This document shows positions 32,660 through 64,000 of a stretch of 64,000 bases of DNA, one piece after another. The stretch is from Candolleomyces eurysporus. Taxonomy: Eukaryota; Basidiomycota; Agaricomycetes; Agaricales; Psathyrellaceae. Where the stretch lies: NCBI GenBank assembly GCA_027579435.1, contig JANBPK010001189.1, positions 62,001 through 126,000 on the forward strand, read 5' to 3'. Positions within the stretch are counted from its first letter, which is position 1. Every line of letters begins with the position of its first letter. The position numbers and the translations under genes are program-made. The notes below the pieces were generated by a model, which saw nothing but the letters and a program-made list of their open reading frames with translations, ran no database searches and had not been told where the DNA came from.

Positions 32660-35600
32660 ATGGCAAAGAAAGGCACAGACGAGTCCACGACGTTGTTTGC
32701 AGGTGCCCACCACCAATCCTTCCAGGGTGCAGACTTCAGGACTGCGGGAAACGACATTTACATGCCCACGTTCAATGTCAATTTCAATGCACCTGGTCTC
32801 TTGGTCGCCCCCAGCTCTCCTAGTCCCAAGTCGGCTCCAGCTCCGAGCACTCCCAAATTCAGGAAACGCGTCAGTCTCAGTCGTGCCGTCCAACAGGTGT
32901 CCAGATTCTTCCGGTCTTCTAAGAGCCAAGATCCTCAGTCGCATCCGTCTCCATCAGCCTTGACCTCGAATTTCGAGGAGATGAGGCAGATGCTCGAGGC
33001 CGTGCCTACCCACCAGGGCCAAAGCTCGACGAGTGGCAATACAGGCGTCCAAGATACCGCGTCTGATGACCAGCCTTCCGAGCGGTCCAGTGAGGATTTC
33101 AATGTGGTGCGTCTTACCACTTGGCTCTACGGCCTTTCTCATGTTGATTGCCGGTAATTAGACCTCCCTGGACGATATGGATTTAATATCAACGCAATTT
33201 CAAGATATTTCCAAGGCGGAGATTTATATCCGCAGTATGTTGCCATCGAGGAGAGGCTTACCGTGTTGGCACCCCCGACCTAGAGGACCGTATGTCGGTG
33301 AAGAGGGTGTTGTACCGGGTGATGTGGGGACGTTCAGCGCTGCAGATGGATTTAAGAAGATATTTAACCTCTGGGAAGACGAGTGTGTACGAAGATCTGA
33401 CTTGTCATACGAGCCTCCCGCCAAAGAAGTCATGCTTCATCGAGAAGAGCTCGCAGAAGGAGATACCATTGTTGACGGTACCTCGTCGAAGGTATACAGA
33501 ACGGAGGATGGGAGGTGCGTGTTGTTTCTTTCTCTAACCGAGATTGTTTGCTGAGCCCTCCTAAAGGTCCGTTACATTGTTCGAGTTCACTTGCCAATCA
33601 CAGCAAGGTGCCATACTCGCCTGTACCTCTTCGGCAGACTTGGAAGAGCTCGTGGACATAACGTCTCTTCGAGATTTCATAGTACAGCATGCAGGGCAGC
33701 TATACCGACATGCGAATGCCATTCGACGCGTGGCAGATGAAGACTCTTTGTACATAATATCAGGATGCATCAAGTCCGACAGCTGGGGTGTTGCAGCGTA
33801 TACGAACGTGATGCCAGCACCGCACGACGTTCTCAGGCTTGTCAAGTCAGGAGCTCAAAGCCATACAGCACAAATCGCATCGTATACTTGGACAGACCGA
33901 GGGACTGCGGAGGCTCGTTTTGGCTTGACTTCTACGGCAAGGTGTCCAGGTGTTCACAAAGGGAAGGACCAGTGTCTTTTCCTTCGGGGATTCAAGCTGG
34001 CCTTTTCCCAGAGCTTCCGTTCTCGATTGAAGGACCCGTCCTTCAGGCTACCCGGCGGCTCCGGGTCGAAGGACATGGGGCCAAGTCCAAACTCGGCTCC
34101 TGATGAAGCCCACCAGAAACCAGAATCACGAGGTGGCGGCGACACTGGGGGATCGAAAGGCAACCAATCTGGCTCCGCCGGGGCTTCCTCTCCGAATTCA
34201 TTTTACGGAGGTCAGAATCACATATTGACCGGTGAGATAAGGGTCGACAGCTTCCCTCCTTCATCAGAGAGAGTACGTTTCTCATATACATACACCTGGC
34301 AACGCACATATCCTCATGATCTTCACTTAGACAATTCATCCCTGCGACAAGATCACTGACTCCCTGCTAAAACTGGTGGGTTCAGTACCTATGCGGCGAC
34401 TGCTCAGTCTGGCTGATGCGATTATAGACTGGCGCAGATTGTGCCTTGAGTCATGACAATGATTGGAGATTCAATCTTAAATTCGTATCATTAGATGGTA
34501 CGTGCTCGATATTTTTGAAAGTGCATTGATTCGATCTCTGAGCGTGCCTCTTTGTCTTTCAACAGAAGATTCATGTACCGATTTTATTCGATCCAAAGCG
34601 ATTTCTGCTCGCAACGGTCAGTCATCAAGTTCCCGTCATCTGTTGAAATATATTATTGAGGTGAATTCGACGAGGGTAGGGGTAGCATACTTGATACCTG
34701 AAGACGAGCTCTCGATGCAAAGCTCAGCCAGCCCAGGCAGCCGCACACTCAACAAGAAAGACATTCAGTCCAATACTCCTGTGCAGGACTTCGCCTCCAC
34801 GTCACCCCGAAGCTCTGTTTTACAAAGAGACTATGAAAGGTCTCAATCAACAGAGCCCACCACGTCCAGCACACGGCTTCTTTCAAAGTTTATAGGCAAG
34901 CATAATGCACGACGTCGCCCAAGGGAAGATGACGATGCTTTTCCGGAGCCGTGGCTCACTCTAACACCGCATGATGAGGCGAGGGAAAAGGAGCGTAACG
35001 ACGAAATAAACAAGGAAATCGTGCGAGAGCGTAGTACCATCAAGCATAGAGACCGGAGGACATTCAGGTTGTTACTAGTAGGTTCGTCCAACTCCTCCGG
35101 CTCACGCTGTCCATTTTTGCTCACATTCAGAAGGCCAAAGCGAGAGCGGTAAGACTACAACGTTGAAGAGTACGTTCGCCCATCTGCTATCTTCGTTCCG
35201 GGCATTCATCTCAGGGTTGATATCCCTACACAGACTACCAACTTAGCTTTGGAAAACAAGAATGGGAACAAGAGCGAGCCGCGTGGCGTCCAGTCATTTT
35301 CTTGAATCTCGTTCGCAATGTCAACATCGTCCTTGGACACCTCAAGGCTGAAATGTCCAGCGAGAGCTCGACACCTCAAACCTCGGGCCACTTACCTCTC
35401 GGTTTCACTGATAAACACCGTCGACTCGTCTCAAACTTAGCCAAGCTCTCTGAAATGCAGCACGACTTGGAGCTTCAGCTAGGCGCCAAACCCGAACTCA
35501 AAACCCATAACAGAAGAGTGGATCCTTTGGATCCTGAACACTATGAAGACAGTGTTGATCGAGGTGTCCCAGAATTATCCTTGTATTCATCCAAGGGTTG

Positions 35601-36904
35601 GAGATCTGTTCTGGAAAAGGTCAAGGCGAGACAAACAGAGGGGGATCAACGTCTGGAAGAGGAGGAAGGTAACGTTGCCATGTCACTTGAGTCAGTGAAA
35701 GACGACATCAAGAAGCTATGGGACGATTCCGTCGTGCAAGAAGTCCTGTCCAGGAGGAGAGTGCGTCTGGAAGAGATGCCAGGGTTGTATGGATTGTTTT
35801 TGCATATATTATCATCTCCGATGTGCTAACAAGAGTTACAGCTTCATCATGGACGCCGGCAGAATTGCATCGCGTGACTATCAACCAACGGATGATGATG
35901 TCCTCAGGGCTCGCCTCCGAACCATTGGCGTCCAGGAGCACAAATTTACCTCAGGACGTGGTATGTCTTTTGTGGTTAGATTTCCCGCATAACTGAGTCC
36001 TCGTTTTCAGCAGGGATAAACCAGGGCTATCAATGGCACTTGTACGATGTTGGAGGCGCGAAGAGTGATGTACGTCGGCTAATTACCTCTAGGGGCGCAT
36101 GCTAATCACTCCTATTTGGTAGAGGGCGGCCTGGGTTCCTTACTTCGACAACGGTAAGTGTCGTTAACGATACCTTATATCGATTGAGCGACGCAACCCT
36201 CCATCTAGTGGACGCTTTGATCTTCTTGGCGTGAGTTGAATTGGTTCTCTGTTTGGGTACGACTTGATGACCCCCTTCATGCATTGCTCTCTCAGCCCTA
36301 GTGAGTGACTATCTCATTAAAACATCACTTGCGTTCACGTACTTTCAGTCTCGGCATTCGACGAGAGTTTAACCGAGGATCCCCGAGTGAATAGAATGGA
36401 AGACAGCTGCCTCCTCTGGAAGTCAATCTGTTCCAGTCACCTGCTCGCTCGTACACAAATCATTTTGTGTAAGCTTGATTTTAGTATACACCATTCCGCG
36501 GATTAACGCATTCGACCAGTTTTGAACAAGGCTGACCTTCTAGAAGCGAAGCTTCAACGAGGCGTTCGGATTCGTGACTCAATTTCTAGCTTTGGGGACC
36601 GGAACAACGATTTGGAAACAGCGACCACCTGTGCGTAGAATTACGCTCTCGATTTTCGGGTGTTAGCAACGGCAATGCTTATATTCGTCACACAGATTTC
36701 CGCCAGCATTTTGCTAAGGTCGCCAAACAATGCTCGCCTGTTCCAAGGAAGTTCTATATTCATGTAACATCAGTTATTGTGCGCCCTCGCTACTCATTCG
36801 CATAGTTGGCCGTCTTACTGATTCTAATCCAGGATACTAAATCTACAGGACTTATCCTACAATCCGGTGCGCTTTCACTTTTTAATCGTCTTCTGCGCCG
36901 TTAG
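32660..36904 (+). CDS. Modular fusion protein A: shared module plus G-protein alpha subunit
   Basis: This 1093-aa protein is made from about 18 exons. Module exons are 32660-33106, 33162-33514, 33567-34272, 34331-34375, 34428-34497 and 34566-34616. The exon at 34680-35081 runs without a break from the linker GVAYLIPEDE into the G-alpha start RRTFRLLLVG. Module motifs are SFQGADFRTAGNDIYMP, GLPCWHPRPRGP, EGVVPGDVGTF, SGCIKSDSWG, DQCLFLRGFKL and ADCALSHDNDW. G-alpha motifs are the P-loop GQSESGKTTTLK, switch I LRARLRTIGVQE, switch II YDVGGAKSDRAAW, NKAD and HVTSVIDTK. The catalytic Gln of switch II (normally DVGGQ) is Ala, so GTPase activity may be low. Exon 36296-36300 is only 5 nt. The C-terminus is short and lacks the usual end; an alternative last splice would stop at 36921. 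It is probably a GTP-binding signalling fusion. Confidence 0.85.
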
Positions 36905-37410
36905 CTAATGCATGTTGGTGAACTGGCTCGGTTGTTTGCACCCCATAGTCGAAGGTTCAATCTTGCGAGAGAACCTAGCATCGTCGAGCCTCATATGAAT
37001 TTGAGGGGGGATGATGATTCCCAGGCCGTATATACTACTTTATGTTTAGATGAGACGATGAAGATCAATTATTTTGACTTCTGCATGATTCAACAATGGC
37101 AAATCAGAATACATTTTGGAATTTACGCAACTATGTACTTTTTAACGTTGCTACCTTCCACTGACTACGAGGTTGTTGTATCTCGGGGATAGTTTCTGGT
37201 AGGTAGTGCCAGCCAGTGCTGGAGGAGTGAACACCATCTTGTCAACGCCGCTTGTTGTATACGGGCTGAAGGCCTGTACGAACGCGATTGTTGGTTCTCG
37301 GCGAAATCAGACACGAACTCGCCCAGGGATTGCTCGATTTCCCTCCCTTTGCCTTCCAGGTGAAGTTTTGGATAGTTTGGTAGCGAGCAGGCGGTGTGAG
37401 ATGCTGGTTC
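36905..37410. other. Spacer downstream of fusion gene A
   Basis: No gene is seen. The segment to about 37140 is duplicated at 49385-49610, together with the last exons of the G-alpha part, showing that this 3' flank was copied with the gene end. Confidence 0.6.
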
Positions 37411-38285
37411 TCCTTGGATGACATGGATTTGATATCAATGCAATCTCAAGACATATCCAAGGCGGAGATTTACATTCGCAGCATGCTGCCAGCGAGAAAG
37501 GGCTTACCATGTTGGCACCCCCGGCCTAGAGGGCCATTTGTCGGTGAGAAGGGAGTCGTACCGGGTGATGTGGGGACCTTTAGCGCGGCAGCTGGATTCA
37601 ACAAGATGTTTAGCCTCTGGGAAGACGTGCGGATACGAAAATTAGTGGGTCCTGACATGGTATACCAGCCTCCCCCTAAAGAGGTCATTCTCTATAGAGA
37701 AGAACTCGCGGAAGGAGATACAATTGTCGACGGGGCATCGTCGAAAGTATAAAGAACGCCGGATGGAAGGTGCGGTGCTCATTTATTCTTCTCCTGTTGA
37801 GACTGTCTATTGAGCCTTCTCCAAGGTCGGCTACACTGTTCGAGTTCACTTGCCAAACACAGCAAGGCGCCATACTTGCCTATACCTCGTCGGCGGACCT
37901 GGAAGAACTCGTTGACACAGCTTCTCTTCGAGAATTTATAGTACAGCATGCCGGGCTGCTATACCGACATGCGAATGGCATTCGACGCGTAGCAGATGAA
38001 GACTCTTTATACATAATATCAGGATGCATCAAGTCCGACAACTGGGGTGTAGCAGCATATGCGAATGTGATGCCAGCACCTCACGACGTTCTTAGGCTTG
38101 TCAAGTCGGAAGCTCCAAACCATGCAGCACAAATTGCGTTGTATAATTGGACGGACCGAAGAACCGCAGAAGCTTATTTATGCAAGAACCAGGTCGTCCG
38201 CCCGGACCGAACGCAGGAGCTCGCTCGTTCCGAACCAACTCTGAGGATAAGTTATGTCGATTTCGTATCTCAAAATGGCGGATAA
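37411..38285 (+). pseudogene. Truncated pseudogene copy (B) of the shared module
   Basis: It matches module exons 2 and 3 of fusion A closely (ISKAEIYIRSMLPARKG, GVVPGDVGTFSAAAGF, IRRVADEDSLYIISGCIK). The first exon is missing. In exon 2 a codon that is TAC (Tyr) in A is TAA here, near 37749, a nonsense change. Exon 3 breaks off after RRTAEAY, and the motifs from the DQCLFLRGF region to the C-terminal domain are gone. It is a dead fragment between fusion A and fusion C. Confidence 0.85.
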
Positions 38286-38586: not shown

Positions 38587-41500
38587 ATGGCCAAAGAGTC
38601 TCCCGCGACATCCACAGCGATGTTCTCGGGTGCTCATCACCAATCCTTCCAGGGAGCAGACTTCAGAACCGCAGGCAACGATATTTACATGCCAACCGTC
38701 AACGTTAGCTTCAATGCCCCAGTTCTCGCCCCTGCTGCTGGGCCCAGCTCCAACTCGCTATCAGAACGATTAACTCCCAAACAACGTCGCAATCGTTTTG
38801 TCCAGCAGGTTTCCAGATTCTTTCGATCTGCTGAGGCTGGAGATGCACTTTCACATCATCCGGCTCAGCACCCGGGGCGGGTAGAGCAGGCAGCTAATGA
38901 CGCAACTTTTTCACCTCGGCAAAATGTGACGCCAGATCCAGTCGATGTCGCTGAAGAGAACTGCAAGTCACCGAATGAAGGCAAGGAACCTGAGGATGAC
39001 TTCATCGTGGTATGTTTTCTACTATAGCACTCGGTAACTGACGCCTAAGCGTAGTGCAATGGTCGCCATCAACAGTCAGCATTGGATGACCTGGATTTGC
39101 ATTCGATGCAAGCCCAAGTGGTCACGAACGCGGAAATATACGTTCGCAACATGCTATGTGCCAGAGCGGGCTTAGCATGCTGGAGTCCTCGCCCTCGCAA
39201 ACCGTTCACTGGTGAAAGAGGGGTCGTTCCAGGCGATGTGGGAACATACGATTTGACTGACGGCTTCAAGACCATTTTTAATATCTGGCGAGACGAAGCC
39301 TTGCTGAAAAGGATGAACCCTGGTATGCAATCATGCAAACTACCGCCAAACGATACCACCTTCCACTTGGACGAACTCAAAGAGGGAGCCACAATTGTTA
39401 GCGGAACTTCTTCCAATGTTCATGAATCACAAGATGGGCGGTATGTTGAGATTCATTCATATCATACCGGGCACGGACTAACATAAGCAAAAGGATCACA
39501 TCCTTCGAATTTCATTGTACGTCTGAACAAGGTGCTGTGCTCGCATGCACCTCTTCTGCAGATCTAGAAGAACTAGTTCGCCCTGTCGCCCTTCGCAACT
39601 TCTTGGTTCAATATGCAGGCATCATCTACCAGTATGCAAATGCCGTTCGCGGAGTCGCCGATGAAGATTCGCTCTACATCGTTTCAGGGTGTATCAAGAG
39701 CGACAGTTGGGCCTTGGCAGCCTACAAAGATCCGGCCCAAGCGCCGCACGACGTTCTTAAACTCATCAGGAAAACAACTGAAAATCTTGTCGATCAGATT
39801 CCAACATACATGTGGACCCTTCGAGGAACGGCGGAAGCACGATCTGACTCAACATCTACACCAATGACTTCCGAGCGTCACCAAAGAAAGGATCAGTGCC
39901 TTTTTCTCCGTGGTTTCAAGTTGTGCCTTTCCAAAGATTTTCGTCTTCGTTTGAAGGATTCACCACTCGAGTTCGATCATGATTCCGACTCGAGAGATGC
40001 AGCTAGCCCCAATCCCGAAGACCCCGATACACCGCAAGGTGGTCACGGTCAGGGCCGAAGCAATGGCACGAACTCAAAGAGAAACGAGAGGCAAGGAAGC
40101 GGAACTTCTTCAGCAAACCCTCCACCGTCCAGCAGCAGGAACCTTTCGTCGGAGACTACTGGGTTGCAAATATATTCTTTCCCTCCTTCCTCGGAAAAGG
40201 TGTGTCCCTGACTGCATTTTGGATGTTTATTGACTATGATTCTAGATGATCCATCCTTGTGATAAAATCACAGGCTTATTGCTGGAGATGGCGAGTCACG
40301 GATAAACTCATGCGAACTTTATTTGACGTGCTGTTCATCTAATTTAGACCGGCGCAGATTGTGCATTGAGCCACGACGATGATTGGAGACTTGGTTCCGA
40401 CAGCGTCTCTTCGTGGGATGGTAAGTGCACCTTTAGTAGTGGCGACCTTCATACACTACTCATCATTGCACAGATGATTCGTGTATCGACCTACTTCAAA
40501 CCAAAGTGATATGTGCCCGCGGTGGTGAGCATTGGCAGTACGATTTGTAACTCGTCGTGGTTGGTTGACACAACGTCCGATAGGAGTGACTTACCTGCTG
40601 TCTAGAGACGAACAAATAGCACAATCTTCCGAAGCCGTCTCACAAACTGAGCCCCTGGGTCTCCCTAGCATTAGTCCAGTACACCCCTCGCCAGTGCAAC
40701 CGTTGTCGACCTCGCAGTACCGCCCAGCGACGCCGTCCTCGCCGAACCCCCACCCATCATCTAGCACATCTCAAAGGGAACAAAAAACGTCGCACGGCGT
40801 CGTCTTGGGCTCCCCAAATGCTCGTGAGCAAGTTAATAGTCAACCTGGTCCAGAGGCCCCGCTTTACCCGGACGTCTATGCCCACCCTGCTGCAGTAGCC
40901 TATGCAGCTGCACATCCACGCCGCCCTATTCCGAAATTTGGCCCGTACCTTATGTTACAAACACTCGGGGAGGGTGAATTCGGGAGAGTCAAGCTCGGTC
41001 TTCACAGCCAATGGGGAGAAGAAGTTGCCATCAAACTCATCCGGCGTGGAAATAGCACCACCGACATGTCCAAGGTTGAGAGGGAAATCGAAGTTCTTCG
41101 CGTACGTCACGCTATTCTAAATTTCTGCCTTATGCTAATCCTGCGACCAGTCCTTAAAACACCCCAATATCGTCCGCCTCTATGACGTAATTGAAACGGA
41201 CAAGTATATCGGCGTTGTCCAGGAATACGCATCCGGAGGAGAACTCTTCGACCACATCCTGGCCCATCGTTATCTTTCCGAAAAACACGCAACGAAGCTG
41301 TTCTCTCAACTCATCTCCGGTGTTTGGTACATACACCAGAGGAAAATTATCCATCGCGACCTGAGGCTGGAGAATTTGCTCCTCGACCGTCACAGGAATG
41401 TGATAATTACCGGTTTTGACTTCGCCAACAATTTTGGGCATCGTAAAGACGATCTTATGCAGACGTCATGCGGTAGTCCTTACTACGCCGCCCCAGAACT

Positions 41501-43589
41501 CGTCATCAGCGAAGGGCCTTACGTGGGGAGTGCAGTCGATATCTGGAGTTGCGGTGTCATTCTTTACAGCATGCTGGCAGGCTACCTTCCTTTTGACGAT
41601 GACCCAGCAAACCCAGACGGAGACAACATCAACTTACTTTACAAATACATCATCAACACAGCTCTTTCCTTCCCCGCCTACGTTTCTGCAGAAGCGAGGG
41701 ACCTTCTCAGCCTCATGCTGGTTCCCGATCCCACACGACGTGCCACTCTCGATACCGTCATGGACCATCCATGGCTGGCTGCATACCATGGAACTCCACG
41801 AACCGACGGCGTCCCAGCAGCTTTTGGCAAGAGCGTGGCACACCTGGAACAGATCGAATTTGAACAGCGTCAACAGAAACGCATGTCGTACAGGAAGCAA
41901 ATCAACCCTACCACTGCCGTCACCAATTTCGCTGGGGCTCCCTCTCCTCGGGGCCAGAGCTTTCAACCGGAACCCTCCAGCTTCCAGCTACCTGATTCAT
42001 TAAGCTCTCCACCGACCTATCATTCAGTCACGTCGCACGCGTCTCCTCCGTACGGCTTTTCGACCGAAGCGCATGAACTGTCCAGCATAACAGACCCCCT
42101 CTCATCCAAGGCGCAGGATGGAGTCGTGGAATCAAGTTTTGGGGCTTCGTCAACGGTCGTCTCCCCAACCCTGGGAAGGGTAACAAACAACCTTCTCGAG
42201 AGCGAATTCGCGCCAGACCAGACTGCAGATCCCATCTGGCTCATGGGTGTGCAACATCCTGGCTTCAAACAGCCGTCGGGATCGTCTCCCTCTCATATTG
42301 CCTCGACCACTTCTTCCATTGGAACTTCAGGTAACAGATCAAGTCTGGGATCCATCTGGCCCCAAGAGTTTTATAGCGACTTTGGCTCCCTCATTTGGTT
42401 GACATATCGGTCGAACTTTCCTTCACCACTCAAAGACGAAAAATTAGAAGATCTTCCGGACATTAAATCAGGCCAGTTCGATGGAGGGACGAAAATTCCT
42501 TCAACCAAGCCGCGATGGAAGTCCGGGGAGACCGGCTTGTCGAGCGATTCTGGGTTGGGATGCATGATCCGAACGGGTCAAAGCTTGCTCGCAAACGCTT
42601 TGATACATGTCCAGCTGGGCCGAGATTGGCGGAAACCGTCACATCCAGTCTTGACATCCAGATACGCCACTTATGTGCAAATCTTGACGTGGTTTTTGGA
42701 CACGCCAGAGGCGCCGTTCAGCATCCATAGGATGGCGTTGGCGGGCAAGGAACTGGGAGTACCTGTAGGACAGTGGTTTGGACCAAGTGTAGCCGCGGGT
42801 GCGCTGAAAATGTTGGTTGACGACTACCCTCTAGCAGGTATTGGCATCGCCATTGCCGCTGGCCATGGGGTAGTTTACCAGACGGATGTCTATGCCGCAT
42901 CGCATGCAAGCCCACTTGAGACAGGGTCAAACAAAAGCCCAAGAACATGGGGAGACAGGCCAGTGCTCGTGCTAATTGATACAAAGCTCGGGAGCTGGAA
43001 TGTCAGCATCCGGCCAATCTGCGACACACTGAAAGCCCTTTTCACTTTCCCGCAATCAGTGGGCATTGCAAATGGACGACCCAGTAGCTCGTACCATTTT
43101 GTTGCAAGTCAGGCAGACGAATTATTCTACTTAGATCCACACTTCTCGAGGCCGTCAATTCCGTTGAGGCCACTTCAAATAACGGCCGGAGACGAAAGGA
43201 ACAACTCAGTGGAGGTGGATTGGGATCGGGATCGTGGGATAGAGACGTTGGAGGCGGGACGGAGTGGGCAGGAAATACCGTTCAAGCAAGACGGAGAACA
43301 ACCGACGAAATCGACAGGGTCCTCAGATTTACGCCACCAGTTCGGCCCTCATGAACTCGAGGAATCCACGTTGGATGCTGTGGAACTACACTATTGCACT
43401 GCGTATACCGCAGCAGAACTGCAAACCTTCCACTGCGACAGGGTTAGGAAAATGCCACTGTCTAAGCTGGATCCCAGTATGTTGATCGGCCTCCTGTGCA
43501 AGAACGAGGAGGACTGGATGGACGTGAAAAGGAGGGTTGCAGAACTCCCTAGTGCTATCTTCATGATTCAAGACGGGCCCTCTTCCTAG
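38587..43589 (+). CDS. Modular fusion protein C: shared module, Kin4-like pseudokinase and ATG4 protease
   Basis: The protein is 1539 aa from eight exons: 38587-39009, 39076-39440, 39494-40199, 40246-40290, 40348-40420, 40474-40524, 40584-41101 and 41151-43589. Exon 7 is open from GVTYLLSRDEQ into the kinase start, and exon 8 joins kinase to protease without a stop, so the fusion is seen directly. The kinase has GEGEFGRVKLG, VAIKLI and HRDLRLEN, but DFG is replaced by GFD (ITGFDFANN). The Mg-binding Asp is therefore lost and it is probably a pseudokinase. The activation segment SCGSPYYAAPELV resembles Kin4 kinases. The protease is peptidase family C54 (ATG4, which processes and delipidates ATG8): PIWLMGVQHPGF, the catalytic Cys in GCMIRTGQSLLANAL, and Asp/His in FYLDPHFSRP, all present. 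Intron 4 has a GC donor (40291). A TAG at 43587 precedes a still-open acidic tail. Confidence 0.88.
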
Positions 43590-44503: not shown

Positions 44504-47500
44504 ATGGCGAAAGAATCCCCCGTATCGTCCACGGCGATGTTCTCGGGGGCTCGTCAACTATCCTTCCGAGGAGCAGACTTCAGAACCGCAGGCAACGATA
44601 TGCACATGCCAACCTTCAACGTCAACTTCAATGCCCCATTTCTCGCCCCTGCCGCTGGCCCCAGCTCCAGCTCACTATCGGAACGATCAACTCTCCAACA
44701 ACGTCGCAGTCGTTTTATCCAGCAGGTGTCCAGATTCTTCCGATCTGCTGAGGCCAGAGATGCACTTTCACATGATTCCCAGCACTACATGCGGGTAGAA
44801 CACGCAGCTAATGGTGCAACTTCTTCACCCCAGCAATATGTGACGCCAAATCCAGTCGGTGGTGTCGCTGAAGAGAACCGCAAGTCACCGAATGATGGCA
44901 AGGAACCTGAGGACGATTTCAGCGTGGTATGTTTTCTTCTCTAGCACTCGATAACCCACGGTTCAGCTTAGTGCATCGACAGTCAGCCTTGGATGACCTG
45001 GATTTGCATTCAATGCAAGCCCAAGTGGTCACGAACGCCGAGATATACGTTCGTAACATGCTTTGTGCCAGAGCGGGCTTAGCATGCTGGAGTCCTCGCC
45101 CTCGCAAACCATTCACTGGTGAAAGGGGGGTAGTTCCGGGCGATGTGGGAACGTACGATTTGACGGACGGCTTCAAGCCCATCTTTAATATCTGGAATGA
45201 TTCGGAAGCTTTGCGAGAACGGATGGATACCTCCAGTGATACCCAATCATACAAACTACCACCCGGAGATACCACGTTCCACTTTGACGAACTCGAAGAG
45301 GGAGCTACGATCGTTAACGGAACATCCTCCAATGTTCATGAATCGCAAGACGGACAGTATGTCGAGAGTCATTTATATCAGTGTGCATAGACTAACTCAA
45401 GTAGATGCATCGCATCCTTCGAATTTCACTGCACCTCTGAACAAGGTGCTGTGCTCGCATGCACCTCTTCGGCAGACCTAGAAGAGCTGGATAACCCTAT
45501 CGCTCTTCGCGATTTCTTGATCCAATATGCAGGCGTGATCTATCAGCATGCAAATGCCGTTCGCAGAGTCGCCGACGAAGACTCACTCTACATCGTCTCA
45601 GGCTGCATCAAAAGTGACAGTTGGGCCTTAGCTGCCTATAAAGATCTAGCACAAGCTCCGCACGACATTCTCAAACTCTCCAAGAAAACAGTGGGGAATC
45701 GTGGTGATCAGGTTCCAACATACAGGTGGACTCTTCGAGGGACGGCAGAAGCACGGTCTGGCTCGACAGCTACGCCAATGACTTCCGAGCGTCATCAAAG
45801 AAAGGACCAGTGCCTTTTTCTCCGCGGTTTCAAGCTGCGCCTTTCCAAAGATTTTCGTCTTCGTTTGAAGGATTCACCGCTCAAATTCGATCACGATTCC
45901 GATTCGAAAGATGCAGCTGGCCCCAATCCCGAAGGACCCGATACATCGCAAGGTGGTCACGGGCAGGGCCGAAGCAATGGTGTAAACTCAAAGAGGAACC
46001 AGAGTCAAGGAAGCGGAGCTTCTTCAACAAACCCACCGTCCAGCAGCAGGGACCTTTCTTTGGAGACCGGCGTACAAATATATTCCTTTCCTCCTTTCTC
46101 GGAAAAGGTGTGGTCCGTGATTGCATTCTGGATGTTTATTGACTATGATTCTAGATGATCCATCCTTGCGATAAAATCGCAAGCTTATTGCTGGAGATGG
46201 TGAGTCACGAATCAACTTGTGGGAAATTTATTTGACGCGCCATTCATCCAATTTAGACGGGCGCAGATTGTGTATTGAGCCACGACGATGACTGGAGACT
46301 TGGTTCCGACACCGTATCTTCGTGGGATGGTAAGTGAGCCTTCGGCTGTGGCCCCTGATCTGTTACTCATTATTACACAGAAAATTCGTGCATCGACCTG
46401 CTTCAAACTAAAGTGATATGTGCTCGCAACGGTGAGCATCGGCGTTACGATCCAATTAGCATCGAAGGACGCTGATTCCTGGATTACCAATAGGAATAGC
46501 CTACTTGTTAGCTAAGGACGAACAAGTATCCTCCGAAGCCGGTTCAACAAATGAGGCCCTGGCACTTTCTGGTATCTGTGGGCAGAATCAGCCCTTTTCA
46601 CCTCTTTCCTCAGCGACCCTCCAATCATCTCATTCCTCCCCGCGCACAGCCGGACCAATAGGTGATATTCAGGACAGGGCCGAACTTGTCCCTTCGAGAA
46701 GCAATATCCCAACTCTCAACCACTTAATTGATTACCAGAGTGGCAATCCGGCGACTTCACGTTTATGTGCTTATGCGGGCGCTGACTGGGACTTTCGCAA
46801 GGCCATCGAATCCACTGGCAATACCGACCTACCTCCCATCACTAGTGAACTGTCTACTATCGCCTCCGCACCGCCAAATACGTCGTGCGAACGCATTCAT
46901 TCTCACTCGGCGGAGACAGTATTGTCTACACTTCTCATGCCTCTTCCCGATTCAGAGCCAGATACACGGGAGGCCTCACCCTATCGGCGCAAACGGGGCA
47001 TCCGCGGTCGCAAGACTGACCAAGATAGTATAGCTGCATCACTCGCCAGCACCGCTGGTCCAAAAACTTCATCACAAGCATTCCCAGGTAACCGAAGCAA
47101 CCTGCAGGTTTCACCCCGGCCGAAGAGAATGGAGGACCATAAAGACTTCCGCTCTGCTATTGCAACGTCCAGCTCGTTTGAGGAGCGGTATCAATTCATA
47201 TTTGCCTACGGTGCTCGCGCAGGTTTCAATACTGCTTCCCCCCATTTGTCCACCTCTTGGGCCAAACTGGCGACAGGGCTCCACACAAATCCTATGCGCG
47301 TGTGGAACCACATGGAGGCTCTAGATTGGTCAATAAGGCCCCTTGAGAGTCTCACAAACTATCTTCTCGACAGCGAAACCGCCTCAGCCCAGATCGCGTC
47401 CCCAATTTGGCCCAAATCGGCCTCAGCCCAAAGGACGTACCCAATTTGGCTCAAATCGGCCCAGACCACGTACCCAACTTGGTTCAAATCCGCCACCACA

Positions 47501-48946
47501 GACCCAATCTGGCTCATGGGCGTTAAGCACTCAGGCTTCAGACAACCGTCGGAACCATCTCCCTCTCATACCACTTCGAGCACTTCTTCTATCAGTTTTT
47601 CAAGGAGAACGAACCCGGGATCCACATCCATTCGGCCCCAAGAATTTTACAGCGAAGAATTCTCCAGCGACTTCAGCTCACTCATTTGGCTGACACACAG
47701 GCCGAACATCGCTTTGCGCCTCAGAGAACGAGGTCAAGAAGATTATTTTCTTAAGGCAAAGCAACGCTTTATGGAGATGCATTTCACGCCAAGCGATCGA
47801 CGATGGTATTTCGTAGACGGGGACTGGTCAAGTGATCCTATGTGGGGGGGCATGATCCGGACGGTTCAGAGCTTACTCGCGAATGCTTTAGTACGTGTCC
47901 ACCTGGGCAGAGATTGGCGGAAACCATCAGACCCAGCCTTGACCTCCCACTACGCTGCTTATGTGCAGATTTTGACGTGGTTTTTGGATACACCAGCTGG
48001 AGAGGCTCCGTTCAGCGTACATAGGATCTCGTTGGCGGGCAAGGGGCAGGGGAAACCGATAGGACAGTGGTTTGGGCCAAGTGAGGCTGCAGGCGCGCTC
48101 AAAGCTTTGGTCAACGCCTACCCTCTAGCCGGGATTGGCATCGCCACTGCCGTCGATGGACTGGTTCACCAGCCAGATGTCTACGCCGCATCGCACGCAA
48201 ACCCGCTCGAGACAGGGTCGAGCAAAATCTCACAAGCATGGGGAAACAGGCCGGTGCTCGTGCTGATTGAAGTAAGGCCAGGGGTGGACAGTGTCAACCC
48301 AATCTATTACGACAATTTGAAGGCCCTTTTTACTTTCCCGCAATCGGTGGGCATTGCGGGTGCACGGAAGATGTTCATTGCACGTGGACGGCCCCGCGAC
48401 TCGTACTATTTTGTTGCGAGTCAGGCAGACAAATTGTTTTACCTGGATCCGAGCATCTTGAAGTCTTCGATTCTGTTAAGACCGCTTCAAAACACGGCCA
48501 GAGACGAAAAGAACGACACAGCGGAGGTGGATGGGGGCCGGGACTGCGGGGTAGAGGCGTTGAAGGTGAGACGGATTGTGCAGGAGGTGCCGCCCGAGCA
48601 ATACGAAGAACAACCAACGCAATCGGCGGGGTCCTCAGGTTCACACCACCAGTTTGATCCTCGTAAACTCGAGGAATCCATGTTGGATTCTGCACAGCTA
48701 CACTATTGCACTGCGTATACCACAGCAGAACTGCAAACCTTCCACTGCGACAGTTTTAGGGAAATCCCACTGTCGGGGCTAGATCCCAGTATGTTGATTG
48801 GCTTCCTGTGCAAGAACGAGGAGGAATGGATGGACTTGAAAAGGAGGGTTGCAGAACTGCCTGGGTTTATCTGCATACTTCAAGACGAGCGTCCCTCGGA
48901 CCGAGAACTTTCATTGCAAGATGAACCGACACGGGTGTTGGATTGA
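44504..48946 (+). CDS. Modular fusion protein D: shared module plus inactive ATG4-like protease
   Basis: The protein is 1373 aa from seven exons: 44504-44926, 44983-45356, 45405-46107, 46155-46199, 46257-46329, 46381-46431 and 46494-48946. The module is very close to that of fusion C (exon 1 is also 423 nt). The last exon begins GIAYLLAKDEQ and runs into a long linker and an ATG4 (C54) domain with no kinase. In this domain the catalytic Cys is replaced by Gly (DPMWGGMIRTVQSLL, where C has GLGCMIRTG) and the His by Ser (FYLDPSILK, where C has FYLDPH). The fold-level sequence is otherwise kept, including VASQADKLFYLD and the C-terminal LDPSMLIGFLCKNEEEWMD. It should not cut ATG8 but could still bind it. 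A short tandem repeat of the PIWLM motif precedes the domain. Confidence 0.87.
47390..47520 (+). repeat. Tandem repeat inside fusion D encoding PIW-KSA units
   Basis: Four decaying units of about 30-38 bp encode SPIWPKSAS, YPIWLKSAQ, YPTWFKSAT and DPIWLMG. They look like copies of the conserved DPIWLMG segment at the start of the ATG4 domain, which occurs once in fusion C. Confidence 0.75.
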
Positions 48947-51092: not shown

Positions 51093-51305
51093 AAGATGCT
51101 AGATGAATCTGTATTTCCCATAGACTTTGGGTGTTTCTGAGCATATGTTTCCGATTTTTCTATGAGCGCCCGTCCTCGAATATTGACCATAGCATGACGA
51201 TGACAATTTTTGCGTTTGAGAATCATCAGATGGTGATGAGGGGCCAGTGCTCCTGTCAGGACCTATGATGTTAGAACAGTAGACGGGTTTCTTTCTACCA
51301 CCACC

Positions 51306-52727: not shown

Positions 52728-53506
52728 CTAGTTTGCTGCAGTGATGACTATAGCACTCAACGGAATGGCAACTGACGCGGCCGTATTCGCAGCTCCGTTC
52801 TCTCCAGCTCCGTTCCCTCTGGCTCTCCTCCCTTTTTCGAGGATGCAGAATGATATGACGACTGTGTCCAGGATCTCCAGACCCAAGTCAGTGATGGTCA
52901 GTGTGGCTGGATCGTACACCTCCTTGGGCGGGGATTGCTTGTGGTCTTTGTATCGGTAAGATTTCTTGAAACGTGCGATGGGGTTCTTCTTATCCGTCTC
53001 GGAGTATAGCTACAATGATTTTTATCCAGCCCTTTGGAACAAGAACAAGGAGCAAGCTCGACATACCTCGAAACCGGGCCGAGGAGCGTTGCCTTCCATT
53101 TGAAGTTTCGTCCGTTCAAGTCTGTGAAGTACACCGTGCTGGAATGTTACGGCTCCTATCATCAATTTCGAACGCTACCTCGAGTATGAGGAATCAACGC
53201 ACTGTTTGAACGGTAATATACTCTTTCTTGTCCAAGAGCGACCTTGTCCGAACGGACGTCCTTCCAGACCCACTGGGCCAATTGTACACCATTGTCGTTG
53301 AAGATCTTCGTCACGGACTCTGGGCCGTTGTGTTCTGTCCTGACAGTGTAGAACTCTTTCCCGGTTTGTTGATCTGTAATTATGGTGTTGCAGGGGTTGT
53401 CGGGCTCGAGGACAAGAACGAGGGTGGTGGGTTCTGTGGGCAGACTGAGGCTGCGGTGGGGGTGGCTTTGCCTTACCAGTGGGAATATATATCCTGGAGG
53501 ATCCAC
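52728..53506 (-). CDS. DUF6593 family protein, second member
   Basis: Minus-strand pieces fit the DUF6593 pattern: TTLVLVLEPDNPCNTII and VQLAQWVWKD, then VYFTDLNGRNFKWKATLLG, then LYSETDKKNPIARFKKS and LTITDLGLEILDTVVISF. The last exon is 52728-53009. The earlier exon edges are tentative: the donor that keeps frame before LYSETD is a weak GTTTCG, and a join near 53150-53220 is unclear. I found no certain start codon; the frame is open from about 53506, and an upstream first exon is possible. The function is unknown. A C-terminal hydrophobic stretch (AASVAIPLSAIVITAAN) may be a weak membrane segment. Confidence 0.65.
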
Positions 53507-54595
53507 AATTGCTGTAAGACGAAGACAGAATGCACTGCCCTTATCTGCTAGTCAACTTCTTCTGACATAGGCTATGGAGCGTTGGCCCATGCCAGTGTGC
53601 AAAGTGTCCAATAAGGTGACGACGTCATACACCTGAATCTAGGTTTGGCTAAAGATAGTGTAACGTGAGGAATTTCTGTTCGGCGAAGCCGCGAAGGTTT
53701 TTTTTCTCATTCAATTTGCTTCATCATGTCCCTAGCCGCCTACGTGATGGTTTGCTTCACATTCTGTGCTTTAGTTATCCACGATCTGATGTTGGCTCCT
53801 CACAAAAAGTATATTACGACTTGGCGTCTCCGACTCGCTTCGAATTACTCAACCCCAACTTGTCGTCGAGAGAAAATGCCTACAGCTCTTAACATTCCCT
53901 TGAAGTTGATCTTGCCACTTTCTAGATCAGCGACTGCACAAGGGAAGCAGTGGACGAACGAGCCGATTACCTATAACGAGAGGCAAGGACAACGGTGAAC
54001 AACCGATCGGTGGGTAGGTGTTATGGTGAGTACCTTGATTTCGTCTCCAAGGATCGAATACACATCATAGGCCATGAACGTGCCGCCTATCTGGACGTAG
54101 TTGATAGCGTCGTTGGCAACACTTTCGCCACCGGTCGCATCGATCTGTAAACTAGGCTCATTTCCCTTTCGTGTTCTTATGCTTATTGAAATAAATTAAG
54201 CGGTCGCGTGAGGTCACAAAGGCGCGGTCGGCTTGGCGCGTCCGCTTTGACCTTTGTGAGCCCAAAACGGATAAGTATTGTGGACTCGTTTTGGCCATTT
54301 AACAACGGTGTAATGACAAAGCACTCGGGCCTTTAAACAACTTCTAGTACCTCGTGAATTGTTCTGTTCTCTTCCCTCGCCACCGACGACCACCCATCAC
54401 AATCTCCACCACTACCACAATCCCTCAGATCAACGGCGAGTCTCTGACAGTCCATTGACTAGAACCTGTGTCCTGTACCTGAGGACTTTCTATCTCCACG
54501 ATTACGAACAGAAAGCCCAACCAGACGAACGAACACCCACAGCTATCCCACCTGCCACTCACCAGACGCATCCGATTGAAGACAAAGAAGTCACC
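53507..54595. other. Intergenic region with an unassigned minus-strand open block
   Basis: Near 54025-54150 the minus strand reads INYVQIGGTFMAYDVYSI between plausible splice sites. It could be an exon of a lost or unassembled gene. The region after 54200 is the presumed promoter and 5' leader of the next gene. Confidence 0.3.
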
Positions 54596-58085: not shown

Positions 58086-61000
58086 TTAGCATTCTCTGGC
58101 GAGATCTCGGAGCGGGAAAAGTGGTCGTGACGCACTCTGTGTGTACTGCCAAGGGTAGTTGAGGGAGTTTGGAAGATAATTGGCTGAGACATGCTTTGGT
58201 GGCATCGAAGGTCCACTGGTAGCACCTGGCCCTCTTGATTGAGGAACAGCGCTGTATGGTGACGTATCACACGGTGGCAGCGAGATATGGTCGTACGAGG
58301 GTAATACAGCTAGTGGAAGAAGTCAGAAATATTACCTATGAACCTATGCTCTATACTGGAGTCGACGTACCAATTCGAGAGGCATCGCTCACTTTCCCGC
58401 TTTTGAACGGATCGAAGCTAGTTCTAACGTTGGGTTTTGTGATGTCCTTGGAAACTGGAGGGTGAATTCCAAAGAAAGGATTGAGCCGTTGAGGTGCCTT
58501 CAGTGTCCGATGGTGAGCCTATCAATATAACAGTCGACAACACATCATACCGAGTTCGAAACGTCTGGCTCCTTCGATGTACCTTCGTCTGGCTTAATGG
58601 TAGTATTCTTGATACCTTTAAAAGGAGGAATGGGTTGGATGACCATGGGCACGCGTATCTTCTGCTGAAGCGATCCTGGATCATCTGGATTGGGCGATGT
58701 GTCCGACGGCTTTTGAGGGTCATCGTTGAGTTTATCCGGGCCTGACTCAGCGCTTCCCGAGATCGTTGAATTATTTACAAATTTTTTGTTCTCCTGCGTC
58801 AGGTACTCCTTCCCCATTGTCACGGACTCGTAGCAATCGAGAGGATGAGCAAGTGTCTGCGCAATGATAGGATGGATTGAGCGGAGAACAATCGCACATA
58901 TGACGCTGCCCTAAAACAAACCTCATTCGCAGAAACCGTAGGCGCAGCTGGAGAAGCAGGCCTGGGTTGAAGGCTTTTAGCATCTCTACCGGCAGTAGAG
59001 GAGCCTGTAGTCGCTGTAGTACCAGCCTTACCAGCAATAGAGGGGACGTTAGTCTTGCTTCAACCAACGGCGATATGTTAGGGCATAGATTCTCACTTGC
59101 TCGAAAGCACCGGCTGAAGGTCTTCCATCGTCACGGGCTGGCTGGTTAATGCACTGATCCCTACGGGCTCCAATCTCAGAGCTTTGAGCGATGTTTTGAA
59201 CATCTTGATCAACCGGGACTCTTCCGGACTTCTTTGGAGATGAGTGCGGGACTGAGGCTGCCGACATGGAAGGAGTAATCGAGATATCCTGACTCTGCAC
59301 CAGGTCTTCTCCCACCGATGCTACAGCAAAGGACTCCGGTAGTTGTTCGTCTTTAGATAACAAGTATGCAACCCCTGTTGACCTTGAGCTACGACATAGA
59401 GCGGCGCGACTTTTACCACCCACCGTTCCGAACACAAATCGTTCGAGATTGGAGCAGGTCAATACATGAATCAACTGTTCGTAAATAGGCAAGTGATATC
59501 AGCCCTAGAATCTAAGAGGTATGGAATCAGAGCATTTACCATCCCACGCAGTGGTATCATCGAGGCTCGAAAGTCTCCAATCGTCGTCATGACTCAAAGC
59601 GCATTCTGCGCCTGTCTACATTGAACGCTAGATGTCGAATTGAGATTTCTGTTGGTCAAAAAGATGACTTACCATTTCTAGCAGGAGGTCCGCGATTTTG
59701 TCACAAGGGTGAAAGTTCTGAAAGGTAGATGAGGAGACGTTCTGACGCGCGTCATTACGAATAATTCACCTTTCCGGACACTGGAATTAAAGACTCAATT
59801 TGAATTCCAGATGTCAGACTGTACTTTTCACCACCTGATGGTAAGGTTGAAGAAGAAGGATTGCCCCGTCTATCTTCGTTTCTCCCTGGGTTCCCATTAC
59901 GACTATGTCGCCTGTCGGTGTCTTTGTAGCTGTCAGAAAAGCGAGAGTCATGGCCGCCGCCCCTGGACCCGGAGGTGGGGTTCAACGACGGTTTGTTCAA
60001 GCGCAAACGAAAATCTTTGGAAAGTAACAGCTTGAAACCCCGAAGGAAAAGACACTGATCGTTCCTCCGGCGGCGCTTGGCGGTTGCTGGTGCAAGGATC
60101 GGGCCAGATTGAACCTCTGCCGTCCCTCGGTCTGTCCACCTATAACTTGAGACCTGATCTGCATCATTTTGAGTCCTCTTGCGAACTAGCTTCATGGTAT
60201 CATGCGAGGCCTTCGGGACATCGCGCCATGCCGCAAGGGCCCAACTGTCGGTCTTGATACACCCAGATACGATATATAAAGGATCCTCATCGTCTATTCG
60301 TCGAATACTGTTTGCATGTTGATAGACGACACCAGCATGCTTGACCAAGAAGTCACGAAGAGCAATAGGGTCGTCAAGCTTCTCAAGGTCCGCTGCTGCC
60401 GTACACGCGAGTATAGCACCTTCTTCAAATTCGCAGTGAAATTTAAACAGTTTGGGGCTTTGCGATCGATGTTCGTTAACATCAAGGGCTTCTGTAAGAT
60501 AATCCGTTACGTACCATCCATCTTTCGATGCCTTGACAGTCGCAGAACCGCCGGTGACGACAGTATGACCTGCTGAGAGCTCAGGGTGCGAGGTGATCTT
60601 CTTCGGAGGTAGCTGCTCCGGCTCGACACCAGGCACAGCCAACAACCACCCAGAGTCTTCCCATATGTTGAATATCTTCTGGAAACCGTCCGTCAAGTCG
60701 AAGGTTCCCACATCGCCTGGAACTATCCCTCGCTCTCCAGCATGAGGAGGTCGAGGATGCCAGCATGCCAAACCTTTTCTACAGCGCAGCATTCCTCGGA
60801 CGTAGATCTCTGCGTTCGTGGTCTCTTGTACTAACGTCGATCGCAAGTCGAGGTTACTCAATGCAGTCTGTCATTGAAGTCAGCACATCTGGAGGGAAAG
60901 CTAATAGGTGTCCGAGCAAAGAATACGCACCACACTGAAATCGTCTTCCTTGTCTTCGTTTGGCAGTTGAGTTTCCGCGCCCTCTCGACCGACATTGACC

Positions 61001-61362
61001 GTTGCGGAAGTGGAACCTTGTCGGATCGTTGGGGTTGGAGCAGGCAGCGCCATCGGCGCGAGTTCGGCGCGCTCTGTGGGTGCTGGCTGATGTATGAGTG
61101 CATTCCGAAACTCGGGGGACCGGAAGAATCTGGAGACTTGCTGAAAGAAGCTACAGCGTCGTTCTTTTGGGGTCGATTTATCAGGTGTCAAATTGGAGTC
61201 GGTGGGGCCGCTAGCGACCGAAAGAGTTACTGCGCCTGTGCCCAAGCTGATGTTAATGCTGGAGGTAATCATGTCATTTCCTGCAGTCCTGAACTCTGTG
61301 TCTTGGATGTTCTGGTGATGAGCGCCCGAGAACAGGGAAGTATTCGTTTTCTTCTTAGTCAT
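58086..61362 (-). CDS. Modular fusion protein E: shared module plus disordered tail
   Basis: Minus-strand exons are 60931-61362, 60515-60867, 59770-60457, 59673-59717, 59540-59615, 59424-59474, 59097-59374, 58922-59026, 58551-58856, 58371-58497 and 58086-58309. The phases agree throughout and give 894 aa. The start is MTKKKTN, aligned to MAKKGTD and MAKESPA of the paralogues. Module motifs are FRTAGNDM, GLACWHPRPP, GIVPGDVGTFDLTDGF, SGCIKTDSWALAAW, DQCLFLRGFKLLLSKDFRL, FHPCDKIADLLLEM and AECALSHDDDW; then GVAYLLSKDEQ. After that no enzyme domain is seen, only a Ser/Pro-rich tail with blocks like PLDCYESVTMGKEYL. Exon 2 length (353 nt) equals that of fusion A, while the sequence is diverged. 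It may be the ancestral form without a partner domain, or its partner may be unrecognised. Confidence 0.78.
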
Positions 61363-61972
61363 GATATGGAGGAGGATGGGCAATGATGAGCGGGAGTGTG
61401 ATAGAAAGCCTGAAATCGGGGGACATCGTGGCCTTGGCCAAATCAGTCAAATTGGTGTAAAATCCCATGTGATGAGTTGGCTGTGCCCCCCTTGTGCGGA
61501 ATTTTAGCACGACGCTAATTTCGGAGGGCTGGAGACGGGGACGCTCTTCCTCCAACCCTATCCCTGATCATGAGAAAGAGGAAGAAAGCAAGATGAATGT
61601 AAGCGTAAGTGGGTGGTTGAAGTGCGGAGACGCTATCAGCTTTCGCGGCTAACAGTGACAAACAGCCTCCCAGAAGATCTTGCCTTGCAATTGTGCCTAT
61701 CTTGACTTCGAACGCACGTACGTTTTGTTGAAATGAGAACATTTTCTTTTTGTTAAACTAGGATTTTCAAAGGACACGTCTGAGCTAACCACGGAAACAT
61801 CCGTCTATTTAAGCTCTGCGTTTCAGATTCAACACTGGCAGGTGGTTATATACGCCAGAACGAAGGAGAGAGCGTCGACTTATTAACAATCATGTTCGAA
61901 TGTTTCATTTCTTGTACCGCTCCTTCAGAGGTTTTCTGTGAATTTAGCTACGCGAATTTAGCTACGTGTAAA
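61363..61972. other. Spacer between fusions E and F
   Basis: This holds the promoter side of fusion E and the 3' flank of fusion F. No gene is seen. Confidence 0.5.
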
Positions 61973-64000
61973 CTAATCATTATCAGGCTTTCCGTTAAAC
62001 AAAAACAAGATAAAGAAGCAGACAATGACGCTAATAACAGCGAGTAGGGGAGTGGAGACCTTGCTCTTCGAACTAGGATTCCTTGCTTCCTTCTGCAAAA
62101 CCCGGATACTTTTGTGAGTCCGTTCGGCCTCAACCTCGGCGTCCCTAGCGATCCCCTCCAGCAACGTCGCAATGCTGTTCTTAATCGCCTCGGCCTGTTC
62201 CTCGTAATACCCCTTGTCGTCTGAATTGACACACAATCCGGCGGCTCGCAGGTAGTTTTGACGGGCCTTCTCGTAGTCGGCCACATCTCTGGTGTGTTGA
62301 GCTCTTCCGAGATAGATACACGCAAGGTTGTTCGCGACGCGTGAATTCCAATCGTTATCTTCGGATGCTCCAAGTACTGTTTCGTACAACGCGACGGCGG
62401 ATTCAAGTGTGGTTTCAGTTTCAGCTACCTCTCCGCCGATTTCGCAACGAAAAAAGATAGCCCCTGCTAGGCCAGCCAGGATTTCTAAATCCTCTTCGTG
62501 AATCTTTGCTTTCCGATAGAGTGTTATGGCTTCGTCAAGCTCTGTGGCGGTGGGATTGGCGAAACGTGACGAGAGCGCTTCCGCCAGTACAATATTTAGG
62601 TGAACGCCCAAGCGCTCGTCTCCATTGGCAAGCTCGACCGCCTGCCGTGCATATCCGATGGCATCCCTCATCCTTTCTTGAGGTTTCTCGAAGCCGAATT
62701 CGGAAGATTGGAGGACACAGATGCATTGCGCAACATCAATCAAGAATGTTATACGTCGGATTAGCGGCATCTTGAGCGGGAGAGCGGCCTCCCCCTCAGC
62801 GATCGCTTTGTCCAAGTCCTCCCATGACCCCGATCTTCTGAACTTGTCCTGATGAAGCATGAATTTCGTCATGAGGATGGAGGAAAGTAGATAAGGTTGA
62901 TCTGAAGGGCATATGGATTTCGCACCGTCGACGGTTTTCATCGCGTGTTCGATATGAGTCTCACTTCCTAGGCGACAGAGAGCGACGATCCTCAAATCTG
63001 AGACTACCTGGTCCTCAGCAGCATCGCTGTATCCTCTGGCCTTGATGTGATGGAGAAGGGAGCGTCCAGGGTCAAAGTTTTGGTATGCTGCTCCCAGCTT
63101 TGACGCGATGGCACGGGCGTAAACCCTTTCCAGCTCGTTCCAGCCTTCAATCTCCAGAAAGTGGGCTTCTATCTTCTCCAGCGCCTGTTGATCGTTATCC
63201 TGTTCCAACAGCGCAAATATAAGCGCAAGCAAGATGACGTTTCGAAGAGGGTGCCCCTGCGGCGCCAAGTCCAGCGCTTTACTGTACTCCTCGGCGGCTT
63301 TGACAAGGGCTGACGAGTCGCCAATTTCATCCAAATATTCGTACCAGGCGGTGACTCCGCTGTTATACAGTTCATCGACAATGGAAGGGGAAGGAGGTGA
63401 TGCACCGCGTGCCCCAGCATTGCGAGCGCGTAAGGTTGATACGCACTTCTTCCACCAGCGATTACGGCTATTGATTCGAGGAGAGGGGCTAGAAGACTCT
63501 TCCATAGAGTTTCCATCTTCGCGAACAGTAGGTTGTGCGTCAATTTCTCCTGAAAGTGGCGGGTATGCCACCCCTGTTCCAGCAGTTAGATTGCGCCCTG
63601 AGGGTCGCTCGGGATGAGCGTTGGGCAGCGGTGCTTACCATTGCTAATGTATATATCTTTGAGCTTGTTGCATACTTCGGCTGTTCAAACATAGATTTGA
63701 GTCATGTTACACGTGAAAGGCTGATTTCAAATATTTTCTTACAGGTCGAAAGAAGATTACAGTCATCATCCCATGGCTCGATCACAGGATCAGGGGTGTT
63801 TTGCCAATCATTGTCGTGACTTAGGGCATAATCTGCATTGGTCTGGATGTTTTCGATGAGCGAAGCTTTCCAGCGGTCAACAACAGGACTCACTGTTTCC
63901 GACAATTCCCGTGTAATCTGGTCACTTGAATTGAAGGAAGTCTACAAGATGATGTTTAGGCATTCGGAGTACCTTTTATGCAAAAGGCAACGTACGGGTT
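61973..64000 (-). CDS. Modular fusion protein F: shared module plus TPR domain and membrane anchor (5' end outside window)
   Basis: The minus-strand gene enters from beyond the window end. Visible exons are 63996->64000, 63743-63941, 63639-63680 and 61973-63597. The module part shows ADYALSHDNDW and then GTGVAYPPLSGE at the same place and intron phase (phase 1) as GVAYLLSKDEQ in the other members. The large exon continues without a stop into about 450 residues of TPR-like helical repeats (for example VKAAEEYSKALDLAPQGHP, LDEAITLYRKAKIHEEDLE and YEKARQNYLRAAGL) and a charged stretch. It ends with a hydrophobic segment, LLAVISVIVCFFILFLF, and NGKPDND. This layout predicts a tail-anchored protein with a cytosolic TPR scaffold. 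A reading in which a separate TPR gene starts at an internal codon fits less well, because no ATG stands at the 5' end of that exon. Confidence 0.8.

Follow-up and report, generated by a model that had tools for sequence, protein, structure and literature searches.

The 64,000-nt window examined here (positions 62001-126000 of contig JANBPK010001189.1 of Candolleomyces eurysporus, called C193 below; the genome comprises 65.85 Mb in 1296 contigs) contains six copies, A to F, of a shared multi-exon module that is joined, behind a short linker, to different C-terminal tails. Gene models were obtained by splicing at consensus borders and the tails were scanned for Pfam domains; the fusion of module and tail is a direct fact of the sequence. 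By its predicted fold, the module is gasdermin-like and of the executioner type, and we consider it fairly probable that each of these genes encodes a complete executioner of gasdermin-like type, in which the exchanged C-terminal domain serves as sensor or lock. The fusion family is not a product of chance, because a query with the module of gene C gave 131 exon matches, counted as 65 core places, across the genome, and fused gene models occur in other species.

In A, C, D and E, the spliced models give a complete open reading frame that runs from the start codon through the module and the linker. All four have a 45-nt exon 4 and a 51-nt exon 6, and in each the intron preceding the linker is in phase 1. 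Of their 23 introns, 18 bring an in-frame stop and 15 are not a multiple of three. The GVAYLL-type linker lies about 28 residues after SHDDDW, and the end of the module lies shortly before it. A sequence-only reading of this DNA had described five genes with the same module, the two constant exon lengths and the conserved phase-1 intron; all of this was borne out, with B (37384-38285, forward strand) added as a sixth, truncated copy that has the GDVG exon and part of the core, as judged from exon matches, and in which no linker was seen. The same reading counted F among the five, of which only the tail is found in the window; the core, located through the genome-wide core matches, lies past the window end (C193:126047-126837). 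It had further placed linker and new domain together in one open exon for A, C, D and F, which is correct for D and F. The linker exons of A and C only enter the domain, as an intron falls at the P-loop of the G-alpha in A and a 49-nt intron falls inside the kinase in C. Its claim that the fusions are no annotation artefact stands, with reading frames that stay open over 1539 amino acids in C and 1373 in D, and Pfam agrees that the module is joined to different signalling domains (G-alpha exons in A, a kinase with C54/ATG4 in C, and C54 alone in D). The module is conserved between C and D, with omega values of 0.12 in the GDVG exon, 0.14 in the core and 0.17 in exons 4-6 with the linker; exon 1 has 0.41.

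Genes C and D, both on the forward strand, bear captured enzymes. In the spliced model of C, the N-terminal motif and module span 38587..40524 (exons 1-3: 38587-39009, 39076-39440 and 39494-40199, of 423, 365 and 706 nt; exons 4-6: 40246-40290, 40348-40420 and 40474-40524, of 45, 73 and 51 nt). The tail (40584..43589), assigned by Pfam and by comparison with the parent genes, consists of the linker GVTYLL, a kinase (Pkinase, 8e-55) that matches its parent at the DNA level over 40672-41978, including the 49-nt intron (41102-41150), and an ATG4 domain (Peptidase_C54, 8.6e-82; 42363-43532), both in frame. The intron behind the 45-nt exon (40291-40347) uses a GC donor where D shows GT. The spliced model of D places the motif and module at 44504..46431 (exons 1-3: 44504-44926, 44983-45356 and 45405-46107, of 423, 374 and 703 nt; exons 4-6: 46155-46199, 46257-46329 and 46381-46431, of 45, 73 and 51 nt), followed by the linker GIAYLL and the tail in one uninterrupted exon (46494..48946) with an intronless, in-frame ATG4 domain (47654-48844; C54, 1.3e-71). 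The kinase of C has HRD and carries GFD in place of the DFG that is present in its parent. The ATG4 of C retains Cys and Asp-Pro-His; in that of D the catalytic Cys is replaced by Gly and the His by Ser (Asp-Pro-Ser). With the roles that we take these residues to have in the kinase and ATG4 families, the earlier assignments of a pseudokinase to C and an inactive ATG4 to D both fit these changes.

ATG4 is found three times in the genome, in C, in D and in a gene on C1016. The latter is interrupted by introns, for example one of 55 nt between the blastn blocks 5952-6032 and 6088-6270 that is absent in C, whereas no intron breaks the ATG4 sequences of C and D, a difference that indicates an RNA-derived copy. 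A kinase gene on C9 matches the kinase of C with 85% identity across 1334 nt, and since the 49-nt intron of this parent was carried along, the kinase arrived as DNA. Synonymous divergence orders these events. Between C and D it amounts to 0.45-0.57 for ATG4 and for exons 2-6 of the module, with 0.28 for exon 1, and it is 0.33 between the kinase of C and its parent, so the union of module and ATG4 is older than the C/D duplication and the kinase, which D lacks, entered C later. Omega is 0.39 for ATG4, over 444 codons, and 0.19 for the kinase. Two stretches were tested for a second haplotype: a genome-wide query with gene D returned no near-identical copy and matched, besides itself, gene C (at 84% and 74%), further modules and the parent of the ATG4, and a query with a neighbouring gene matched only itself.

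Across the genome, the sequence downstream of the module was inspected at 52 of the 65 places (A-F, 24 loci within L015-L043 and 22 loci within L048-L069, of which L066 reaches a contig end), with 13 left aside. Including A, C and D, 14 of the 52 copies have a tail domain over the Pfam cut-off, and 13 domain kinds are represented. Outside the window, these are CH (L015), NPHP3_N with NACHT (L050), NPHP3_N (L060), C2H2 (L059), TPR_10 (L030), a methyltransferase (L023), an MMR_HSR1 GTPase (L048), a Tle1-like lipase (L062), the helicase-like AAA_11 (L069), Gti1_Pac2/WOPR (L057) and Zn_clus (L055). The matches in L023, L048, L062 and L055 come from pieces joined by hand across introns; the first piece of L055 gave no Pfam match, and its joined cysteine cluster is the Zn_clus. 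NPHP3_N falls below the cut-off in L029. By eye, CH appears again in L021, the methyltransferase in L026 and WOPR in L067, the tails of L061 and L065 resemble multi-span membrane proteins, and L052 and L058 have no evident tail. L031, L034, L041 and L054 look GTPase-like by motifs recognised by eye, and the tested pieces from L041 and L031 had no Pfam match. L049, L053 and L056 have one uncharacterised tail in common with the public protein P0028 of C. aberdarensis. Many other tails are disordered or lack an assigned domain, and Pfam found none in the tail pieces of L028, L032, L033, L035, L036, L037, L042, L043, L053, L061, L063, L068 and P0028.

A single open frame holds both linker and domain in each of D, F, L015, L021, L030, L057 and L062. 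L023, L026, L029, L031, L034, L048 and L067 have a visible linker with the domain 0.5-0.8 kb downstream in a different frame, so that introns must be assumed; for L048, the join is made by the public gene model P0003, which has the same letters after the linker. In L050 and L060, a GVAFL linker lies about 0.6-0.7 kb ahead of the NACHT-type P-loop in a separate frame, to which it is presumably joined across introns. The gap is 1.4 kb in L055 and 1.6 kb in L069, where two separate genes are possible. Our script found no linker in L041 and L059, the latter showing GIAIL by eye. The sequence-only reading would have been refuted if the module never carried other domains elsewhere; this was looked for genome-wide and in other species and did not hold. 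A tree of 50 module cores over 155 columns, from which two short cores (L066, L069) were excluded, has 40 labelled rows with 18 tail labels and needs at least 20 label changes, against a floor of 17, without a shuffled control and with some labels assigned by eye. Close modules on this tree bear CH, two uncharacterised kinds, NACHT-type or methyltransferase tails. C327 and C994 carry corresponding series of module copies whose scores are nearly equal, and they may represent a segmental duplicate or a haplotig.

Three protein searches, two of which scored only the best 8000 candidates, gave 19, 22 (8 repeats) and 21 (1 repeat) matches, or 53 public proteins, 35 of which were scanned with Pfam. 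The named species belong to Candolleomyces, Coprinellus, Ephemerocybe and Coprinopsis, the last three being Psathyrellaceae as well. In 13 of the 35, a tail domain exceeds the cut-off. The tails comprise GATA (P0001), caspase C14 (P0004, P0048), Pkinase (P0006, P0014, P0015), Fungal_trans (P0007), forkhead (P0009, P0010, P0026, the last also with HLH) and G-alpha (P0034); in P0036 the module is followed by NPHP3_N at the end of the gene model, and in P0024 coatomer epsilon lies behind the module, possibly through merging of neighbour genes. Zn_clus (P0013), MIT (P0010), MLKL_N (P0015) and ULD_2 (P0038) stayed below the cut-off. The G-alpha (P0034) and caspase (P0048) tail kinds recur in another genus. 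P0011 has NOPCHAP1 ahead of the module, and here too neighbour genes may have been merged. Three proteins from the source lgn (P0006, P0010 and P0013, of 978, 1033 and 815 amino acids) lie on contigs no longer than 3685, 4016 and 2951 nt; their open reading frames are probably spliced transcripts running through the linker, given the stop-bearing, non-multiple-of-three introns in the source genome and provided that lgn denotes RNA assemblies and that the species concerned have such introns.

The gasdermin-like assignment comes from Foldseek matches with low TM-scores; the VIA-align lists re-inspect these same matches. A module profile gave no match at E <= 10 to the Pfam gasdermin family or to gasdermin sequences in PDB, a comparison in which profiles can miss distant relatives; sequence likeness is not taken here as a defining trait of gasdermins. 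Genes A, C, D, E and F all have a C-terminal part after the module, whose role may be regulatory. RCD-1 of Neurospora crassa has 244-257 residues and HET-Q1 of Podospora anserina sheds only about 5 kDa; in contrast, the present family exchanges its C-terminus for whole foreign domains, has a long N-terminal extension and lacks detectable sequence similarity to them. It also lacks a protease match nearby: none of the 65 module places has an S8/CHAT gene within 10 kb, based on 108 matches, a lower bound, and with some contigs short, and the nearest lies at 21.5 kb. Such a neighbour is usual for fungal gasdermins but does not define them. According to reviews, fungal gasdermins are separate proteins with short C-termini, and about 80% of their genes adjoin protease genes (PMC12881547, PMC10197012, PMC10989679, PMC13304501); the reviews describe them as commoner in ascomycetes and mostly driven by proteases in trans. 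Bacterial gasdermins (Vitiosangium, Runella, Bradyrhizobium) are inhibited by a short tail and lie in gene clusters with proteases, and the account consulted (PMC12881547) mentions no fused host proteins, which the present family has. The literature searched, with most subscription papers outside it, holds no report of mushroom gasdermins with exchanged C-terminal domains.

Closer in layout are the fungal all-in-one NLRs with a HeLo/HELL N-domain, in which, according to PMC12881547, an executioner-type domain is combined with a NACHT-type sensor. In L050 and L060, if joined as presumed, and in P0036, the module likewise stands ahead of NPHP3_N; these are the only over-cut-off cases, and no NACHT or NB-ARC was found in the scanned tails of A, C, D, E and F. 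The family differs from HeLo/HELL NLRs in that its module is gasdermin-like by predicted fold and only a minority of its tails are NACHT-type. It shares with plant NLRs that carry integrated domains the capture of host proteins into one receptor chain. Unlike in those, the window tails have no NB-ARC/LRR match, and what is captured is attached to a putative pore-type module. The likeness to plant integrated decoys that the sequence-only reading had drawn thus stands for the host-derived pieces and not for the shared module, which, with a fold predicted as gasdermin-like, is no NLR core.

A short conserved motif occupies the very N-terminus of the spliced models of A, C, D and E. A 40-residue query with this motif found 36 places at E <= 10, of which 31, counted by position, lie directly ahead of a module core. 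The remaining five are L074 (C260:16500-20400), where it precedes a kinase without the module, L075 (C203:40800-44700), where it precedes WOPR (Gti1/Pac2, 7e-36), again without the module, a copy behind the linker of L033, which is similar to the beginning of the L074 kinase gene, and two unassigned places, C735:13497 and C1246:4499. L062 has by eye a second motif copy behind the linker, before its Tle1-like lipase. Agaricomycete NLRs carry N-terminal amyloid-like motifs (PMC9815663). When the motif was compared with 10 stretches upstream of NACHT domains, one (L084, 10.2 bits) exceeded all 1960 shuffles (best 8.2) and L083 did not. A link to the amyloid-like motifs of the NLR05/22 group is thus suggestive only, and a firm identification was dropped, as only one of the 10 stretches stood out from the shuffles.

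Gasdermins are the executioners of pyroptosis. On the favoured reading, a gasdermin-like pore-forming domain, preceded by the short conserved motif, would have repeatedly taken in other proteins behind the linker, at the phase-1 intron junction, both as DNA copies with an intron (the kinase of C) and apparently as mRNA-derived intronless copies (the ATG4 of C and D); other copies and species would have taken in CH, WOPR, TPR, lipase, caspase, G-alpha, DNA-binding and NACHT-type domains. The C-terminal domain, in the position of the gasdermin regulator, would keep the pore domain off until cleavage, binding, oligomerisation or a shape change of the tail frees it, whereupon the cell, or the fusion cell, would die. 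Among the tails, the NACHT-type and TPR ones would act as classical sensors, those with a caspase could cleave their own linker, and the ATG4, kinase and G-alpha ones could serve as baits or guards. The tails would thereby respond to attack or to non-self, and the family may have a part in immunity or allorecognition. More tentatively, and with some doubt, the whole family could form an executioner-guard system in which fungi fuse copies of regulators from their own genome (such as ATG4, G-alpha and kinases, but also transcription factors and cytoskeletal domains) to gasdermin-like pore domains, each protein being bait, sensor and killer in one chain; this would be a basidiomycete counterpart of integrated decoys and pyroptosis, wired by the shared N-terminal motif.

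Integrated decoys are plausible, not proven. In their strict form, the tails would be baits that mimic host proteins attacked by parasites, viruses or competitors, and a hit on the bait would fire the pore. Host-derived baits fit ATG4 and the kinase, since their parents are present in the same genome (C1016, C9), and the loss of catalysis under retained constraint (the dead ATG4 of D, the GFD kinase of C) and the central regulatory role of many captured proteins (G-alpha, ATG4, kinases, forkhead, GATA, WOPR) agree with them. However, the checked motifs are kept in the ATG4 of C, the G-alpha of A, the caspases P0004 and P0048, the kinases P0006 and P0014 and the Tle1-like L062, no attacker is known, and NACHT-type and TPR tails look like sensors rather than baits; we regard the strict form as rather doubtful. 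As caspase, kinase and lipase tails keep these motifs, not all tails need be inert decoys, and the notion that all of them are dead was dropped on account of the motifs kept in some of them. It is unlikely, if well worth weighing, that the module is instead a membrane-binding or ligand-sensing regulator that makes no lethal pores, with the tails as its working ends. Many tails are signalling or DNA-binding, several with checked motifs intact, and tail kinds recur in another genus, as such regulated outputs would lead one to expect, but the ATG4 of D and the kinase of C are constrained and yet improbable as catalytic outputs, and the tails of E, L028, L035, L036, L038 and L040 look only disordered (by eye; no Pfam match in the four tested). 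Neutral exon shuffling, in which genes of fast birth and death undergo chance fusions without a selected role, is disfavoured as improbable: the truncated B, L052 and L058 with no evident tail by eye, and the many label changes on the tree accord with it, and against it stand the low module omega between C and D, frames that stay open over seven or eight exons in these genes and the same fusion kinds in another genus. That adjacent genes were merged by annotation or assembly is hardly credible, for although the models P0011 and P0024 and the loci L055 and L069 might be so explained, an open exon is common to the linker and the tail or its start in A, C, D, F, L015, L021, L030, L057 and L062, and fusions come from several species and annotators and include the lgn reading frames.

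The remaining genes of the window are as follows. Gene A (forward strand, spliced model) has its motif and module at 32660..34679 (exons 1-3: 32660-33106, 33162-33514 and 33567-34272, of 447, 353 and 706 nt; exons 4-6: 34331-34375, 34428-34497 and 34566-34616, of 45, 70 and 51 nt) and its tail, identified by Pfam and motifs, at 34680..36660, with the linker GVAYLI and a G-alpha with introns whose 3' end lies outside the model. The G-alpha exons, together with neighbouring exons, score 65.1 bits in Pfam; GQSESGKT (~35132), NKAD (~36524) and TCA (~36626) are retained. DVGGA (~36045) was considered a sign of decay, a proposal dropped because L003 and P0034 have the identical letters, which makes it a class feature. 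Gene E (reverse strand, spliced model) has its motif and module at 59424..61362, with exons at 61362-60931 (432 nt), 60867-59770 (a 1098-nt piece with one intron left unspliced), 59717-59673 (45 nt), 59615-59540 (76 nt) and 59474-59424 (51 nt); its tail with the linker GVAYLL (59049..59374, about 108 residues in all) has no known Pfam domain and looks disordered by eye. The tail of F (61973..63634, reverse strand) has the linker GVAYPP (~63574), TPR-like repeats and a C-terminal hydrophobic stretch in one uninterrupted exon. Of the TPR and membrane anchor once proposed for it, the hydrophobic C-terminus is there and the TPR matches are weak, under the Pfam cut-offs. A RING finger gene (31058-31510, forward strand; zf-RING_2, 4e-13) lies immediately left of the array, a SURF4-family gene (51240-52471, forward strand) sits among the module genes, and a DUF6593 protein (2e-7) is encoded at 53165-53551 on the reverse strand. 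The genome as a whole is rich in CHAT (87 matches) and G-alpha exons (84 matches), and NPHP3_N is also a large family, with 150 scored of 1340 candidates.

Models of somatic incompatibility come from ascomycetes (PMC8229728). If the favoured reading is true, the family would represent a new way to switch gasdermin pores, through interchangeable C-terminal domains in tens of copies within one genome. It would also provide a candidate set for basidiomycete somatic incompatibility and a natural experiment on turning any domain into a pore lock.

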